This document shows positions 7,838 through 15,036 of a stretch of 64,000 bases of DNA, one piece after another. Positions within the stretch are counted from its first letter, which is position 1. Every line of letters begins with the position of its first letter. This stretch comes from Dehalococcoidia bacterium. Its GTDB lineage: Bacteria > Chloroflexota > Dehalococcoidia > Lucifugimonadales > Lucifugimonadaceae. The DNA lies in the NCBI GenBank assembly GCA_014239735.1, contig JAAZYI010000010.1:122223-186222 (forward strand). The letters are read 5' to 3'. The position numbers were made by a program, and so were the translations under genes. A model generated the notes under the pieces. It made no database searches and was not told where the DNA came from. It saw nothing but the letters and a program-made list of their open reading frames with translations.

Positions 7838-9367
7838 TTATTGAGCTGTCTCGACTGATCTAGACTCCCTAATAACAATAACCTTGATTTGGCCAGGATA
7901 GGCAAGAGAAGACTCTATCTTTTCAACAATGTTTTTTGCTAATAATGCAGCTTCATCGTCATTAACTTTAATAGGATCCACCATAATCCTTAACTCTCTT
8001 CCAGCTTCAATTGCAAAACATTTTTCCACTCCTGCAAAACTTAATCCAATTTCTTCAATATCTTTTAATCTTTTAACGTAGGCTTCTGCTGAATCTCTTC
8101 GAGCCCCTGGTCTTGATGCGCTTAATGCATCAGCAGCAGCTACAATAAATGATTCTGTTGCTGAAAAATCAGAATCATGATGCTCTCTGATTACAGTCAC
8201 AATCTTAGGATCCATTTCATATTTTTTCACAAAATCTGCCCCAATTTCAGCGTGAGGTCCATCAATTTCATGAGTAAAAGCTTTTCCGATATCGTGTAAA
8301 AATCCGCCAACCCTACACACTTTTTCATCTGCCCCAATTTCGCTTGCCATTAGTGATCCTAAATGAGCAACTTCAATAGAATGTTGCAATACATTTTCTC
8401 CATAGCTATATCTGTACTTTAGTCTGCCCATCATATTAATTATTTCTGGGTGCAAGCCCTTTACAGAAGATTCAAATGTGGCATCTTCTCCAGCCTTCCT
8501 AATAGTCTTGTCTATATCTTTTCTTGATTTCTCAGATATAGCTTCAATTCTGGCTGGGTGAATTCTCCCATCTTTTATTAATTCACTTAAAGCATTTATT
8601 GCTACTTGCCTTCTAATAGGATCAAAGCACGAAACTGTTACAGATTCAGGCGCTTCATCAACAATTAAATCTACTCCTGTAGCTTTTTCAATAGCTCTAA
8701 TATTCCTTCCATCTCTACCTATGAGTCTCCCTTTCATATCCTCACTAGGAATAGATACAGCTTGTATAGTTTCTTCAGCTACTACATCAGAAGCAAATCT
8801 TTGTACAGCACCAGCAATGATATTTTTTGCATGATACTCTACTTTAATCTCTAGTTCTTCCTCAGCAGCTCTAAATCTTTTCGCCACGTTATGTTCTATG
8901 TCTTCTTGCGCTTCTTTTAAAAGAATATCTTTTGCATCCTGATAAGAAATTTCTGAAGCATCTTCAATTTTCTTCGCATATATTTCACGAGAATTTGTAA
9001 GATCCTTTTTCTGTTGTTCTACAAATTCTACTTGTTCAGAAATATTTAATTTTTCTTTATCAAGATCAGAAATTTGTTTTTCAACTTTATCTCTTAAAGA
9101 GTCAATCTTAGATTGATCTTGTCGTATTTTACTTTTCTCTTCATTTATTTCTTTTTCAGATTCTAGCCTGAATTGTAGGGATTTTTCTTTAGCCTCGAGC
9201 AAAATTTCTTGGCTTCTTTTTTGAGCCATATTTATTTGCTGGTTTGCTGCATTCTTTGCTGCAATTTGAGACCTTTGGTATAAAAATAATTTTATTCCAA
9301 AACCCACAGAGCCAGATATTATTCCAGTTATAAGCACAAGAAGTATAATGAGTAATGAGTTACTCAT
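7838..9367 (-). CDS. rny: Ribonuclease Y
   Basis: N-terminal TM, long coiled coil, KH (GRDGRNIRAIEKATGVDLIVDEAPE), HD domain (GFLHDIGKA). Confidence 0.97.
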   Translation of the reverse strand: MSNSLLIILLVLITGIISGSVGFGIKLFLYQRSQIAAKNAANQQINMAQKRSQEILLEAKEKSLQFRLESEKEINEEKSKIRQDQSKIDSLRDKVEKQISDLDKEKLNISEQVEFVEQQKKDLTNSREIYAKKIEDASEISYQDAKDILLKEAQEDIEHNVAKRFRAAEEELEIKVEYHAKNIIAGAVQRFASDVVAEETIQAVSIPSEDMKGRLIGRDGRNIRAIEKATGVDLIVDEAPESVTVSCFDPIRRQVAINALSELIKDGRIHPARIEAISEKSRKDIDKTIRKAGEDATFESSVKGLHPEIINMMGRLKYRYSYGENVLQHSIEVAHLGSLMASEIGADEKVCRVGGFLHDIGKAFTHEIDGPHAEIGADFVKKYEMDPKIVTVIREHHDSDFSATESFIVAAADALSASRPGARRDSAEAYVKRLKDIEEIGLSFAGVEKCFAIEAGRELRIMVDPIKVNDDEAALLAKNIVEKIESSLAYPGQIKVIVIRESRSVETAQ

Positions 9368-9476
9368 AGTACCTCCTGTTTGTTAATTTATTCTATTTTT
9401 AATAAAAATTTAATTTTCTAATTCGAATTTTCAAGCAATATTAGTGTGTAGTCAAGAATTTTGATGGTTGCAGTTG

Positions 9477-10106
9477 CTATTTAGCACCTTCAGCACCTTC
9501 TTCACCTTCAGCACCTTCTTCACCTTCAGCAACAGTAGGTTCTTCAACAACTCTCGGAGGCTGGATCCATGCCACTGAAGTTTCAGGATCACCTACGAGC
9601 TCCACTCCATCTGGCAATTTTAAATCACCTCTTTTAATGGATGCCTCTAGGTCAACTAATACGGACACATCTGCTTGAATTTCATTCGGAACTGAAAATG
9701 GTTTTGATAAAACAGATAGAGAGTATATAGATTGAGTTACTGTGCCTGCTCCACCTCTAATTCCTGGCGCTTCTCCAATTAGTACAACTGGAACCTCAAC
9801 CTCTATAGCCTTATTTTCATCAACTCTCATAAAATCAACATGTTGGAGCTCTCCTGTGGCAGGATGCTGATCAACGTTTCTAACAAGTGTTGTATGTTCT
9901 TTACCAGACTCTTCTATAATTTTAACAGGACTAGTTCTCCCAGCTTCTTGCAAAACTTTTACTACCTTATTAGTCTCTGATTGGAGTGAAATAGACTCCA
10001 TGCCCGGACCATAAACATGCAAAGGTAAAGTCCCATTTTTTCTAAGAGATCTTAGCTTTTTTCCAAATTTGGTTCTTATTTTAGTTTCTAATGATATTGA
10101 ATCCAT
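9477..10106 (-). CDS. 50S ribosomal protein L25/general stress protein Ctc
   Basis: VRNVDQHPATGELQHVDFMRVD, C-terminal Glu-rich EEGAEG repeats. Confidence 0.93.
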   Translation of the reverse strand: MDSISLETKIRTKFGKKLRSLRKNGTLPLHVYGPGMESISLQSETNKVVKVLQEAGRTSPVKIIEESGKEHTTLVRNVDQHPATGELQHVDFMRVDENKAIEVEVPVVLIGEAPGIRGGAGTVTQSIYSLSVLSKPFSVPNEIQADVSVLVDLEASIKRGDLKLPDGVELVGDPETSVAWIQPPRVVEEPTVAEGEEGAEGEEGAEGAK

Positions 10107-10214
10107 TTTATCCTGTTTTGTTTATAGCCTGACGTATATTAGCACATATTTGGATGATTAATCTATATGATTGTCCTAAATACGTGTTAATATGCATTCA
10201 AGAAAAGGAAAATA

Positions 10215-10655
10215 ATGTTAGTACCAATGAAAATAGACTATGGGGTTAGGATTTTAGTTCATCTTGCCACGCTCCCTAAAAACTCTATAGTTAAAGGATC
10301 TGAAATATCTAAAGCAAGGCATGTTCCCGAAAATTTTTTATTTCAGATATCTAATGATTTAATTGAAAAAAATTTTATAAGAAGTGTTAGAGGCCCTAAT
10401 GGAGGCTATGTTTTAGAGAAAAATCCATCTGAAATTTCTATTGCTTCGATTATTCGAGGATTAGACAAAACAATGGCTCCTGTGTCTTGCATTGAATTTC
10501 CAGATTTATGCCAAGTGTCGGGCCAATGTTCTCAGCAAGATATGTGGACAGATGTTGAGAAGGTCTTAATTTCTAAACTTGAAACAGTAACTGTTAAGGA
10601 TCTTGCAGATAAAGATAAAGTATTTGTGAGTACTAAGGCAATTAATAGAAATTAA
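10215..10655 (+). CDS. Rrf2 family transcriptional regulator
   Basis: DYGVRILVHLA, IPENFLFQI-like, VRGPNGGYVL, Cys-containing C-terminal part. Confidence 0.92.
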   Translation: MLVPMKIDYGVRILVHLATLPKNSIVKGSEISKARHVPENFLFQISNDLIEKNFIRSVRGPNGGYVLEKNPSEISIASIIRGLDKTMAPVSCIEFPDLCQVSGQCSQQDMWTDVEKVLISKLETVTVKDLADKDKVFVSTKAINRN

Positions 10656-10692
10656 TTATGTCTATTGAAATGAAAAATAGAAAATTTTGTTT

Positions 10693-10775
10693 GTGTTGTC
10701 ACCTATGATGGGCATTTGATGTAGATGATAAAGATAAAGTAATCTTCAATGCCCCGACAACACGGGGCTTTTTTT
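10693..10775 (+). promoter_or_regulatory. Attenuator/riboswitch-like leader of moeB-cysM operon (orphan)
   Basis: GTGTTGTC (10693-10700) pairs with GACAACAC (10756-10763), GGGCATT (10710-10716) with AATGCCC (10749-10755); both 3' arms overlap the terminator GCCCCG-ACAACA-CGGGGC-TTTTTTT (10751-10775). Confidence 0.7.
10751..10775 (+). terminator. Intrinsic terminator in leader of moeB-cysM
   Basis: Perfect 6-bp GC stem gccccg/cggggc followed by 7 T. Confidence 0.85.
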
Positions 10776-10789
10776 ATGAAAGGATAAAA

Positions 10790-11605
10790 ATGATAAATAA
10801 ATTGAATCCAGAACAAGTCGACAGATATAGCAGGCATATAATAATGCCTCAAATTGGGTCTGAAGGACAAAGAAAATTACTAAATTCAAGTGTATTAATA
10901 ATTGGCGCAGGTGGTTTAGGCTCACCTGCAGCTTTATATTTAGCGCTAGCAGGAGTTGGCAGAATAGGAATAGCTGATTTTGATGTTGTTGATAGAAGTA
11001 ACCTTCAAAGACAAGTTCTTCATAGAGATGAAGATATAGGAAAGAGTAAGGTTGTATCAGCTATGGAAACTCTTAAAGCATATAATCCCGATGTTAATGT
11101 TGTTATGCATGATGAGCCAATCAATTCAAAAAATGCTTTAGATATAATCAATGAATATGATGTTGTTATAAATGGAGCAGATAATTTTCCGACAAGATAT
11201 TTGATTTGCGATTCTACATTTTTTGCTAAAAAACCTTTAATAGATGGAAGTGTACTAACTTTTGATGGACAAATAACTACTTACGTTCCTGGAGGAAATT
11301 GTTATAGGTGTATATTTCCTGATCCACCACCACCGGGGTCTGTTCCAAGTTGTTCAGAAGCTGGAGTAATTGGTGCTCTGCCAGGACTTATAGGAAGCAT
11401 ACAAGCAATAGAAACAATAAAATACATCCTTGGTGCTGGAGATTTATTGAAAGGTAGAATGGTCCTTATTGATGCTTTAAGCATGGAGTTTAGGACAGTA
11501 AAAATAAGAAGAAATGAAAATTGTGTTCTTTGTGGAGATAATCCTTCAGTCAAAGAGCTTATTGATTACGAATTATTTTGTGGAATGCCTTCAGTTGAGG
11601 AATAA
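10790..11605 (+). CDS. HesA/MoeB/ThiF family adenylyltransferase
   Basis: IGAGGLGSPAALYLALAGVGRIGIADFDVVDRSNLQRQ; CYRC and CVLC zinc ligands. Confidence 0.93.
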   Translation: MINKLNPEQVDRYSRHIIMPQIGSEGQRKLLNSSVLIIGAGGLGSPAALYLALAGVGRIGIADFDVVDRSNLQRQVLHRDEDIGKSKVVSAMETLKAYNPDVNVVMHDEPINSKNALDIINEYDVVINGADNFPTRYLICDSTFFAKKPLIDGSVLTFDGQITTYVPGGNCYRCIFPDPPPPGSVPSCSEAGVIGALPGLIGSIQAIETIKYILGAGDLLKGRMVLIDALSMEFRTVKIRRNENCVLCGDNPSVKELIDYELFCGMPSVEE

Positions 11606-11611
11606 GAAGAA

Positions 11612-12547
11612 ATGAAAATTAACGAGAATATCACTGAAATAATTGGAAATACTCCGATGATTAATGTAAGTAATATTAGCCCTAATGAAGTAAAAATTTT
11701 TGCAAAACTAGAAAGCTTTAACCCTGCTGGCAGCATAAAAGATAGAGTTGCAAAATACTTGATTGAAAGTGCAGAAGCAAAAGGAAAGCTAGTTAATGGA
11801 TCTACAATTATTGAGCCAACAAGTGGAAATACTGGAATAGCTTTGGCTATGTTATCAAGAGTGAAGGGCTATAAGTTAAAAGTTGTTATGCCTGACAATG
11901 TAAGTGACGAGAGAAAATCTATGTTGCTATCTCTTGGTGCAGAAATTATTTTTTCAGATGGAGAACAAGGAACTAACGGCGCAATAAGACTTGCTGAAAA
12001 GATTTCAGAAGAGAACCCTGATTACTTTATGCCATATCAATATGGTAACGAAGCTAATCCACGAGCTCATTATGAAACAACAGGCCCAGAAATAATTAAA
12101 CAGCTCCCTGATATTGATGTATTTGTAGCTGGCTTGGGCACAGGAGGAACTCTGATGGGTGCCGGTAAAGCTTTAAAAGAACATAATGAAAATATTAAGA
12201 TAGTTGCCGCCGCCCCTCACCCTGAAGAGGTTGTCCCAGGACTAAGAAGCATTGAACATGGATTTATTCCTCCAATTCTTGATCTTGAGAAGCTTGACTC
12301 AAGAATTTTAGTTGGAGAAGAAGAATCTTTCTATTGGACAAAGATGTTAATGGAAAAGTGCGGAGTTTTTGCAGGTGTTTCATGCGGAGCCGTTACTGCT
12401 GCTGCAGTGAAAGTTGCAAAAAAAATTAAAAAAGGAAATATCGTTATAATAATAGCTGATTCAGGGGAAAGATACTTGTCTAGTAAGCTATGGGAGATGG
12501 ATTACGAAGATATCAAAGAAATTGGCGAACAAAAAATTTGGTGGTAA
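11612..12547 (+). CDS. Cysteine synthase family PLP enzyme (CysM/CysK-like)
   Basis: ITEIIGNTPMI, NPAGSIKDR, EPTSGNTGIALA, GTGGTLMGAG. Confidence 0.93.
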   Translation: MKINENITEIIGNTPMINVSNISPNEVKIFAKLESFNPAGSIKDRVAKYLIESAEAKGKLVNGSTIIEPTSGNTGIALAMLSRVKGYKLKVVMPDNVSDERKSMLLSLGAEIIFSDGEQGTNGAIRLAEKISEENPDYFMPYQYGNEANPRAHYETTGPEIIKQLPDIDVFVAGLGTGGTLMGAGKALKEHNENIKIVAAAPHPEEVVPGLRSIEHGFIPPILDLEKLDSRILVGEEESFYWTKMLMEKCGVFAGVSCGAVTAAAVKVAKKIKKGNIVIIIADSGERYLSSKLWEMDYEDIKEIGEQKIWW

Positions 12548-12601
12548 TTTAGGCTATTGTTAAGATAATTAAATCAAGAATTAACTTAAAGAGGTGAATA
12601 A

Positions 12602-13381
12602 ATGGTAAATTTAGCTGCAAATCTATCAATGATGTTTAATGAGGTGAACTTTATGGATAGATTTAAAGAGGCATCAAATCAAAAATTTAAATCGGTTGAA
12701 TATTTATTCCCATATGATTTTTCAAAAGATGATATTTTGAATGAACTAAAAGAAAATAATCTTAACCAAATTCTCTTCGATTTACCTGCAGGTGATTGGG
12801 GCTCAGGTGATAGGGGGGTAGCTGCTGACCCTAACAGGATCAATGAATTCGAAGATGGTGTTGGCTTGGCGTTAGAGTTTGCAAATATAATTAAACCGAT
12901 AAATTTAACTTGTTTAGTTGGAAAAGTTCCAAGTGGTGTTTCAGAAACAGATGCACAAGATACTTTGATTAAGAATCTAGCATTTGCAGCTGATAAATTA
13001 CATGATTCTGGATTTCAGTTACTAGTGGAGCCAATAAATACTGTTGATATACCTGGTTATTGGTTGTCTACAACAAGCAAAGCCTTAGAAATCATAGATT
13101 CTGTAGATCATCCAAATATAAAGTTGCAATATGATATTTATCATATGCAAATTATGGAAGGGAATATAATTAGCACTATTAAAGAGAATCTAGGAATAAT
13201 TGGGCATATGCAACTTGCAGACAACCCTGGACGGCATGAGCCAGGAACAGGAGAATTAAATTATCCTAAAATATTTAATGAGATAGATTCGATGGGATAT
13301 AAAGGATGGATTGGTTGTGAATACATTCCTAATGAAGATACTATTTCTGGATTGAAATGGGCATCTCCTTATCTGCAATAA
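12602..13381 (+). CDS. Hydroxypyruvate isomerase-like TIM barrel protein
   Basis: ANLSMMFNEVNFMDRF..., LVEPINTVDIPGYWL, LQYDIYHMQIMEG, HMQLADNPGRHEPGTGELNY. Confidence 0.9.
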   Translation: MVNLAANLSMMFNEVNFMDRFKEASNQKFKSVEYLFPYDFSKDDILNELKENNLNQILFDLPAGDWGSGDRGVAADPNRINEFEDGVGLALEFANIIKPINLTCLVGKVPSGVSETDAQDTLIKNLAFAADKLHDSGFQLLVEPINTVDIPGYWLSTTSKALEIIDSVDHPNIKLQYDIYHMQIMEGNIISTIKENLGIIGHMQLADNPGRHEPGTGELNYPKIFNEIDSMGYKGWIGCEYIPNEDTISGLKWASPYLQ

Positions 13382-13385
13382 TTTT

Positions 13386-13847
13386 ATGACGTTAAATTTT
13401 TTTCTTAAACCTATTTATTCAGTTTTTGGCATAGGTTATATCAAAATCGGATCAGGAACCTTTTGTAGTTTAGTGCCATGCTTAATAATTCTTTTTTTTG
13501 GAGAAAATTTAGGATTATTTGCCCGTCTATCTGTATTAATTATTATTTTGATTTTTGGGGTTTTATCAACAAGCTTTAAGTTTGAAGATAATGGGATTGA
13601 ATTAAAGGACCCTCACTTTGTTGTTATTGATGAGTTTATTGGTATGTGGATAGTACTATTAATTGCTGAAAATTCAATTTTATTAATTTTATTATCTTTT
13701 TTATTATTTAGATTTTTTGACATTACAAAATTACTGGGTATACATAAAATAGAAAAATTGAATGGAAGCCTTGGCATTATTTTAGATGATGTATTTGCAG
13801 GGCTATATTCTTTAGTAATTATTTATATAATTAAATTTATCTTTTAA
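13386..13847 (+). CDS. Phosphatidylglycerophosphatase A family protein
   Basis: YIKIGSGTFCSLVP, DPHFVVIDEFIGMW, FRFFDITKLLGIHKIEKLNGSLGIILDDVFAGL. Confidence 0.88.
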   Translation: MTLNFFLKPIYSVFGIGYIKIGSGTFCSLVPCLIILFFGENLGLFARLSVLIIILIFGVLSTSFKFEDNGIELKDPHFVVIDEFIGMWIVLLIAENSILLILLSFLLFRFFDITKLLGIHKIEKLNGSLGIILDDVFAGLYSLVIIYIIKFIF

Positions 13848-13872
13848 AAAGGAAGGCGAAAGAGAAATCTCT

Positions 13873-15036
13873 GTGCAACTACACGAATACCAAGCAAAGA
13901 ATATTTTAAGTGAACATGATGTTCCAATACCTTTTGGACAAGTTGCTTCATCAGATTTAGAGTGCAAAAAAATATCTACTTCAATAAATGGGAAGGTTGT
14001 TATAAAAGCACAGGTTCATGCAGGCGGGAGAGGAAAAGCTGGAGGAATAAAAGTTGCTGATAATCCTGAAGAAGCAAAAAAAGCTGCCCAAGAGATGCTA
14101 GGAACATCATTAAAAACTTTTCAGTCAGGAGGAACCGAATTTCCTATAAATAAAGTTTATGTCGAAGAAGCTTCTGATATTTCTAAAGAGCTTTATCTTG
14201 CAGTGACAATGGATTTTGATGAAAAATGTCCTGTTATAATTTTGTCTACCGAGGGTGGAATGAATATAGAAGAAGTTGCAGAAAAAACTCCAGATAAAAT
14301 AATGAAAATTCATGTGAACCCTCTTATAGGGCCATCTCCTTATAAGGTAAGAAATTTATTATCATTATTAAACTTAGAACAAAAAATTTCTCAACAAATT
14401 TCTTCTATAATTCAAAAACTATATAGAATATTTGATTCTCTAGATTGTACTTTAATTGAAATCAATCCTCTTGCTATTACCAATGACGAAAAAGTAATAG
14501 CTCTAGATGCGAAAATAACTATTGACGATGATTCAATTTTTAGGCATCCAGATATTGAAGATTTATTTGATGAAACTCAAATGAATCAATCTGAATTAAA
14601 AGCACTAAGCAATGATCTAGCTTATATAAAACTCCATGAAGGAAAAGTTGGGTGCATGGTTAATGGGGCAGGTTTAGCTATGGCAACTATGGATATAACT
14701 ATGAAGGCTGGCACTGCTCCAGCAAATTTTCTAGATGTTGGAGGTAGTGCTTCTGAAGAAAGGATTGAAGAAGCCTACAAAATAATTGCTTCAGATAATG
14801 ATGTAGAGATAATTTTAGTTAATTTATTTGGAGGCATATTAAGATGTGATGTGGCTGCGAAAGGTATAATTAATGGATTTAAAAATCATAATAAACCCAT
14901 TCCTATGGTAGTGGTATTAAGAGGTACAAATTCTAGTGAGGCAAAATTGTTACTTGAAAATTCTGAACTAGATATAAGCTTTGTAGAAGATTTGCCAACA
15001 GCTGCTATCGAAATAAGAAATAAGCTAGGGAAATGA
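13873..15036 (+). CDS. sucC: Succinate-CoA ligase (ADP/GDP-forming) beta subunit
   Basis: LHEYQAKNILSEHDVPIPFG, KAQVHAGGRGKAGG, NLFGGILRCD; GTG start. Confidence 0.96.
   Translation: MQLHEYQAKNILSEHDVPIPFGQVASSDLECKKISTSINGKVVIKAQVHAGGRGKAGGIKVADNPEEAKKAAQEMLGTSLKTFQSGGTEFPINKVYVEEASDISKELYLAVTMDFDEKCPVIILSTEGGMNIEEVAEKTPDKIMKIHVNPLIGPSPYKVRNLLSLLNLEQKISQQISSIIQKLYRIFDSLDCTLIEINPLAITNDEKVIALDAKITIDDDSIFRHPDIEDLFDETQMNQSELKALSNDLAYIKLHEGKVGCMVNGAGLAMATMDITMKAGTAPANFLDVGGSASEERIEEAYKIIASDNDVEIILVNLFGGILRCDVAAKGIINGFKNHNKPIPMVVVLRGTNSSEAKLLLENSELDISFVEDLPTAAIEIRNKLGK

Follow-up and report, generated by a model that had tools for sequence, protein, structure and literature searches.

The element between an Rrf2-family regulator gene and the thiF-cysM operon in the window (the whole 64,000-nt stretch of Dehalococcoidia DNA that we analysed) is in all likelihood a ribosome-mediated transcription attenuator that senses the supply of charged tRNA-Cys. 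Judging from the sequence and its comparison with relatives, the choice of RNA polymerase between stopping ahead of thiF and continuing into it very probably depends on translation of a tiny cysteine-rich leader peptide. The nearest named records are SAR202-cluster, Chloroflexi and Dehalococcoidia metagenome-assembled genomes with ThiF identities of 76–96%, and the source of the window is a marine SAR202-cluster bacterium (Dehalococcoidia, Chloroflexota). An earlier note on this DNA had described the element as an orphan riboswitch-like leader. Its proposal of a terminator/antiterminator leader governing thiF-cysM and tied to cysteine metabolism is supported by the present comparison, and the orphan riboswitch is replaced by a different putative sensor, a Cys-codon open reading frame (ORF) read by the ribosome, which the note had missed.

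The leader upstream of thiF-cysM

The features of the leader and of its relatives are collected in Table 1. The leader ORF reads ATG TCT ATT GAA ATG AAA AAT AGA AAA TTT TGT TTG TGT TGT CAC CTA TGA, in which three of the 16 codons specify Cys (starting at 10688, 10694 and 10697) and one specifies Phe, with a second, internal ATG at 10670 and the stop codon at 10706–10708. Its ATG lies 2 nt downstream of the rrf2 stop codon, and no Shine-Dalgarno sequence is visible upstream of it. The outer arm GTGTTGTC is taken up for the most part by the Cys codons. The inner arm GGGCATT starts one base after the leader stop codon, at a distance of 13 nt from the start of the last Cys codon. Both complementary pairs, the terminator and the T7 tract described in the earlier note are present, and the antiterminator and terminator folds are, as it had held, mutually exclusive through the overlap of the antiterminator 3′ arm with the terminator 5′ arm. 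The terminator scan returned two sites in the region versus 0.4 expected in shuffles, the leader folded moderately better than shuffles (z −2.16, 6/200), and the inner pair GGGCATT/AATGCCC was better than the pairs obtained after shuffling the sequence in between (P 0.013). The T-tract is separated from the thiF start by 14 nt, and thiF carries its own AAAGGA ribosome site outside the hairpin.

Table 1. Positions and composition of the features in the window (first eight rows) and of the paralogous leaders with their downstream genes
Feature	Position	Strand	Basis or occurrence
rrf2, Rrf2-family regulator (IscR/CymR-like), upstream cistron	10215..10655	+	Pfam PF02082, E 2.3e-30
Leader ORF MSIEMKNRKFCLCCHL, 16 codons, unannotated	10658..10708	+	sequence; relatives; shuffle test
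Outer arm GTGTTGTC, part of the Cys codons	10693..10700	+	partner GACAACAC, 10756–10763
Antiterminator 5′ arm GGGCATT (region 2)	10710..10716	+
Antiterminator 3′ arm AATGCCC (region 3), overlapping the terminator 5′ arm	10748..10754	+
Intrinsic terminator GCCCCG-ACAACA-CGGGGC + T7 (regions 3:4)	10751..10775	+	terminator scan; GCCCCG 10751–10756, loop ACAACA 10757–10762, CGGGGC 10763–10768, T7 10769–10775
thiF/moeB-type sulfur-carrier adenylyltransferase gene, without rhodanese domain, predicted first regulated gene	10790..11605	+	PF00899, E 1.2e-81
cysM, cysteine synthase gene	11612..12547	+	TIGR01136 above cut-off
YeeE/TsuA-type transporter (PF04143), small protein, TusA (PF01206) and rhodanese (PF00581) behind a leader			three genera
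Peroxiredoxin (PF00578) + DUF4395 (PF14340), leader MKFYLTQTCCCCCCQNDNGVTSRV			L261, window's own genome; also G004
DUF4395 alone, leader MSNIYMRKCCCCCCCRNERFL			g6
NIR/SIR reductase (PF01077, NirA-like), leader VNTFDVKLRACACCGTG			L264, GC-rich genus
Conserved microprotein of about 36 residues, leader MSNALRTTTTNSSQQVCTCMCTCTPTGVPSLACCTC			g12

The genes downstream are consistent with the codons of the leader. ThiF scored above the cut-off of the MoeB subfamily NF004281, and the closest solved relative of CysM was the O-phosphoserine sulfhydrylase CysM of Mycobacterium tuberculosis (3dwg_A/3dki_A, E 9e-80). The genome also encodes a CysO-like carrier, whose best PDB match is M. tuberculosis CysO, and a JAB-domain protease. 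Among solved structures the protease was closest to an uncharacterised protein and to JAMM proteins, which makes it at most a candidate Mec+. In the mycobacterial pathway, CysO receives its sulfur from MoeZ and is joined to O-phosphoserine by CysM, and Mec+ releases cysteine (PMC3227635). The thiF-cysM pair thus fits a CysO-thiocarboxylate route to cysteine, as the leader codons predict. The neighbouring Rrf2 protein carries a three-Cys motif (SCIEFPDLCQVSGQC) like that of Fe-S binding Rrf2 proteins, and it scored below the IscR and CymR equivalog cut-offs; its gene adjoins thiF-cysM in many family members.

The footprint of a ribosome usually extends some 15 nt in the 3′ direction, counted from the start of the P-site codon. 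By this geometry, its edge would fall at 10709 when the A site holds the last Cys codon, leaving GGGCATT free, and at 10718 when the ribosome is at the stop codon, covering GGGCATT; this is the register of the trp, his and phe attenuators. We simulated folding in both ribosome states in the window's leader and seven relatives (L002–L008). The results showed that, with the ribosome stalled at the last Cys codon, the partial transcript folded into the antiterminator and about 48–68% of the terminator 5′ arm was paired, versus at most 21% with the ribosome at the stop codon. Once the terminator 3′ arm was present, the full terminator was favoured at equilibrium in both ribosome states in most leaders, so antitermination would have to be kinetic.

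In the proposed switch, the ribosome would translate the leader ORF close behind RNA polymerase. When Cys-tRNA is scarce, it would stall on the Cys codons (10688–10699), leaving GGGCATT free to pair with the emerging AATGCCC; this pairing would occupy the 5′ half of the terminator, and polymerase would continue into thiF-cysM. When cysteine is plentiful, the ribosome would get to the stop codon and mask GGGCATT, the GCCCCG/CGGGGC hairpin would form, and transcription would stop at the T7 tract. Low cysteine would in this way switch on cysteine synthesis itself. What can be read directly from the sequence and its comparison is the ORF with its Cys codons and their register, both alternative helices and the terminator, as well as the targets and the conserved plan; we infer from them that the leader ORF is translated, that stalling alters read-through, and that this effect is kinetic.

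Conservation of the leader and its spacing

Relatives of thiF-cysM were collected by ThiF/CysM protein similarity alone. A short Cys-rich ORF, whose control codons match the amino acid that the operon makes, and an intrinsic terminator precede thiF in all 16 leaders with this arrangement, which come from two genera (the nine genomes of the window's genus in which thiF was found, the window's own included, and seven of genus g6). The leader peptides are very different and largely unalignable in sequence, each with a Cys cluster, such as CLCC, CMCC, CCINCC, CHINCC, DCCCCQ, LCCW, TCCCRR, INCCN, MCCL or ICCRT. In dinucleotide-preserving shuffles of the 150 nt upstream of the terminator, the Cys ORFs were significantly enriched over eight divergent leaders (Fisher P 1.5e-10, with L009, which has no CC pair, entered as P = 1; P 0.0003–0.015 per leader). 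About 70 further ThiF homologues from other lineages showed no convincing leader, and the GC-rich family members are without a leader at thiF. A Cys-rich ORF at L123 was rejected, as it sits within a ThiS/MoaD-like gene. Upstream of thiF in genus g8 (L058/L064, G034) lies the short ORF MEDICCLNR with no evident terminator, and L062 (G025) has TGTGNTTGTACNTGT followed by a terminator; these are possibly degraded or differently working Cys leaders.

Seven leaders were close enough to be aligned. The inner pair GGGCATT/AATGCCC was kept in 6/7 aligned relatives. Of the inner helix 94% was paired, and column pair 61/99 varied in a compensatory way (C-G, U-G, U-A); pairing in the terminator reached 100%. 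Covariation in this small alignment was slight, amounting to that one compensatory pair and no better than in shuffles, and is too weak to prove the structure alone. The outer 8-bp pair is perfect in the window only; 80% of its cells are paired, and in the relatives it is either kept up in part by G-U pairs or broken, because its 5′ strand consists of Cys codons. The outer helix is a by-product of these codons, and it was rejected as a general functional antiterminator since it is not conserved past close relatives. Hence, of the long two-helix antiterminator that had been proposed, the inner helix stood and the outer did not: the arm at 10710–10716 is kept in most relatives and has counterparts in other complementary pairs elsewhere, and the arm at 10693–10700 is not maintained.

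Further leaders, found by the searches described below, brought the compilation to 45, in all of which an intrinsic terminator lies between the leader ORF and the first gene. The antiterminator arm, defined as the start of the best helix competing for the terminator 5′ arm, lies 10–18 nt (median 13) from the start of an upstream Cys codon in 44/45 leaders, and the distance from the last Cys codon to the terminator ranges from 38 to 79 nt. The best arm fell within the 10–18 nt range in 39/40 cases versus 24% in shuffles of the stretch, and helix strength was significant over 20 representatives (Fisher P 1.4e-11); the representatives are related within genera, and hence the P values for register and helix overstate independence. 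The arms vary by operon (GGGCATT/AATGCCC, TCGAAC/GTTCGA, GGTTTCTT/AAGAAACC, AGGGGTTC/GAACCCCT versus AGGGGCTT/AAGCCCCT), which indicates that pairing was kept while the sequence changed. The constant 13-nt register provides a simple rule for finding further leaders. An exclusive antiterminator that a stalled ribosome would free and a ribosome at the stop codon would cover is strong in g1 and partial in the g6 thiF leaders, where it overlaps only the foot of the terminator and 0–33% of the core arm is paired. This partial overlap is a weak point of the attenuator reading; in addition, the arm of L007 is weak and the plan of L009 is irregular.

Paralogous leaders at other sulfur operons

A covariance model (R1) built from the window's leader found more leaders in the same genus, and a family-wide pattern search gave nearly 60 matches versus 4 for the reversed control pattern. 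These searches selected Cys pairs and a C4/G4 terminator, so the Cys content of the paralogues does not count as independent support; neither the downstream genes nor the antiterminator register entered into the selection. A class-wide search for three Cys codons gave matches in 3 of 396 genomes, two of which are not clear leaders, and a pattern applied to the window's own genome (ATG..TGYTGY..CCCC) was uninformative and had a gap setting that left out even the window's leader. Several of the family-wide matches in GC-rich genomes (L192, L200, L202, L203, L205, L207, L209 and others) were rejected, since they look like a gene end plus terminator.

The best solved relatives of the YeeE/TsuA-type transporter listed in Table 1 are Spirochaeta TsuA/TsuB. 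At L248:513–3152, L263:321–2923 and their relatives, the operon consists of the TsuA-like transporter, a protein of 71–74 aa, TusA and a lipoprotein-like rhodanese, and in the g6 transporter operon the terminator 3′ arm seems also to provide the transporter gene with its ribosome site. DUF4395 is a recurrent target of Cys leaders, with or without peroxiredoxin upstream (L261:1074–1577, L258:517–1017), and this recurrence suggests a role for DUF4395 in sulfur or redox metabolism. The g12 microprotein (e.g., MINIFKIALSGIRKALDSAQGLGIEADSLAPARKHR) starts about 51–62 nt past the leader terminator at L194, L195, L197, L201, L206 and others, and matched no Pfam family above cut-off.

Most leaders are without an upstream Shine-Dalgarno sequence. 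In many paralogues a −10-like box ends 6–11 nt upstream of the ATG, and several of them also have a perfect TTGACA spaced 17 nt away; the messages of these paralogues would start at or just before the ATG and be leaderless. The g6 thiF leaders are not behind rrf2, and four of them have TATAAT 6 nt upstream of the ATG. The gap between the rrf2 stop and the leader ATG is 0–2 nt in the window and in the relatives nearest to it (7/7 close relatives), which suggests coupling. On balance, we favour the view that SAR202 bacteria possess a multi-operon sulfur regulon controlled through translated polycysteine leaders, many of them probably leaderless, with charged tRNA-Cys as the global sulfur signal.

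Alternative explanations and known systems

A metabolite riboswitch, in which the 32-nt purine-rich apical region would bind a ligand and control the terminator without translation, could draw on the two exclusive folds with their terminator and on the gene context, and is nonetheless extremely unlikely. The apical region, which the earlier note had offered as a ligand- or protein-binding site, is conserved in neither length nor sequence and shrinks to 12–20 nt in L005–L007, so no aptamer is needed and the conserved ligand-binding domain of a riboswitch is missing. No Rfam class was found: the best match to the window region, and the sole notable sub-threshold one, was itself an attenuator leader (Phe_leader RF01859, 34 bits, E 0.0073, below the gathering score of 55), and the paralogous leaders matched no Rfam family at gathering score. 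A riboswitch would also leave the Cys-run ORFs and the register unexplained. We give as little credence to a simple rrf2 terminator with thiF-cysM transcribed from its own promoter and the short ORF present by chance. The hairpin does lie directly 3′ of rrf2 and equilibrium folds do favour the terminator, but the 14 nt between T-tract and thiF are too short for the downstream promoter that the earlier note had considered, the spacing between matched terminator and gene start goes down to 4 nt in the yeeE-type paralogues, the Cys ORFs are enriched, and the g6 leaders are not behind rrf2, with a TATAAT box in four of them.

That the short ORF encodes a functional Cys-rich peptide, metal- or redox-binding, whose own message the terminator ends, is hardly more credible; the Cys runs of up to 7 and the conserved 35-aa form in g12 would suit it, yet the peptides diverge strongly outside the Cys run while the position of the Cys codon relative to the arm is fixed, and the terminator lies immediately upstream of sulfur genes. 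Attenuation acting mainly on translation or RNA stability, with the terminator 3′ arm holding or hiding the downstream ribosome site, is unlikely. The g6 yeeE leaders, whose terminator 3′ arm places AAAGGGG some 9 nt upstream of the gene, speak for it; against it stand the AAAGGA of the window's thiF, placed outside the hairpin, and the T-tract that follows every hairpin. Charged tRNA can also be sensed by T-box leaders (RF00230), which likewise switch a terminator, but none matched in window positions 8000–14000 at E up to 5. The single T-box of the genome is on another contig (G000:C50:37991–38201), and a PLP enzyme distantly paralogous to CysM is encoded about 2.6 kb from it.

The preferred reading, transcription attenuation at Cys codons, places the element among known systems. 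The enterobacterial Phe, Trp, His, Leu and Thr leaders (RF01859 and others) share its plan of a control-codon peptide, 2:3 antiterminator and 3:4 terminator, and differ in codon identity, sequence and host; an assignment to Phe_leader was rejected, given the score and the one Phe codon versus three Cys codons. A close parallel is the uORFC-8-2 motif, an upstream ORF with tandem Cys codons and an intrinsic terminator before cysS in Rhodobacterales, for which ribosome-mediated attenuation responding to tRNA-Cys charging was proposed (PMC8632094). The SAR202 leaders have the same elements and the same proposed mode of action, and are set apart by host and gene: uORFC-8-2 belongs to Alphaproteobacteria and has the single target cysS, whereas the leaders described here belong to Chloroflexota and precede cysteine synthesis and sulfur uptake operons. 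In actinobacterial cys leaders no intrinsic terminator was found (Seliverstov 2005, PMC1262725), and according to the citing account, mycobacterial cys operons have polycysteine leaderless short ORFs (Canestrari 2020, cited in PMC13236596); the mechanisms put forward for the actinobacterial leaders were Rho-dependent or translational attenuation. As far as that account describes them, the mycobacterial ORFs resemble the SAR202 ones in being short, lying upstream of cysteine genes and carrying their Cys runs close to the 3′ end, and several SAR202 paralogues look leaderless as well. Unlike the actinobacterial leaders, those of SAR202 each have an intrinsic terminator and an antiterminator. A literature search with limited reach into subscription papers found no paper linking SAR202 or Chloroflexi to cysteine leader peptides. 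Cysteine-codon attenuators are thus already known from Rhodobacterales cysS and from Actinobacteria; judged by the searched literature, it is the lineage, the targeted genes and the spread over several operons that are new.

With the leaders described here, the range of cysteine attenuators that use an intrinsic terminator grows to include Chloroflexota. Little is known of gene regulation in SAR202, a marine lineage that is abundant and for the most part uncultured, and a Cys attenuator at a CysO-type pathway, together with sister leaders at thiosulfate uptake and redox genes, offers a testable sulfur-control circuit that is readable from sequence. If the proposed regulon is real, charged tRNA-Cys would take the global role that CysB or CymR plays in other bacteria.
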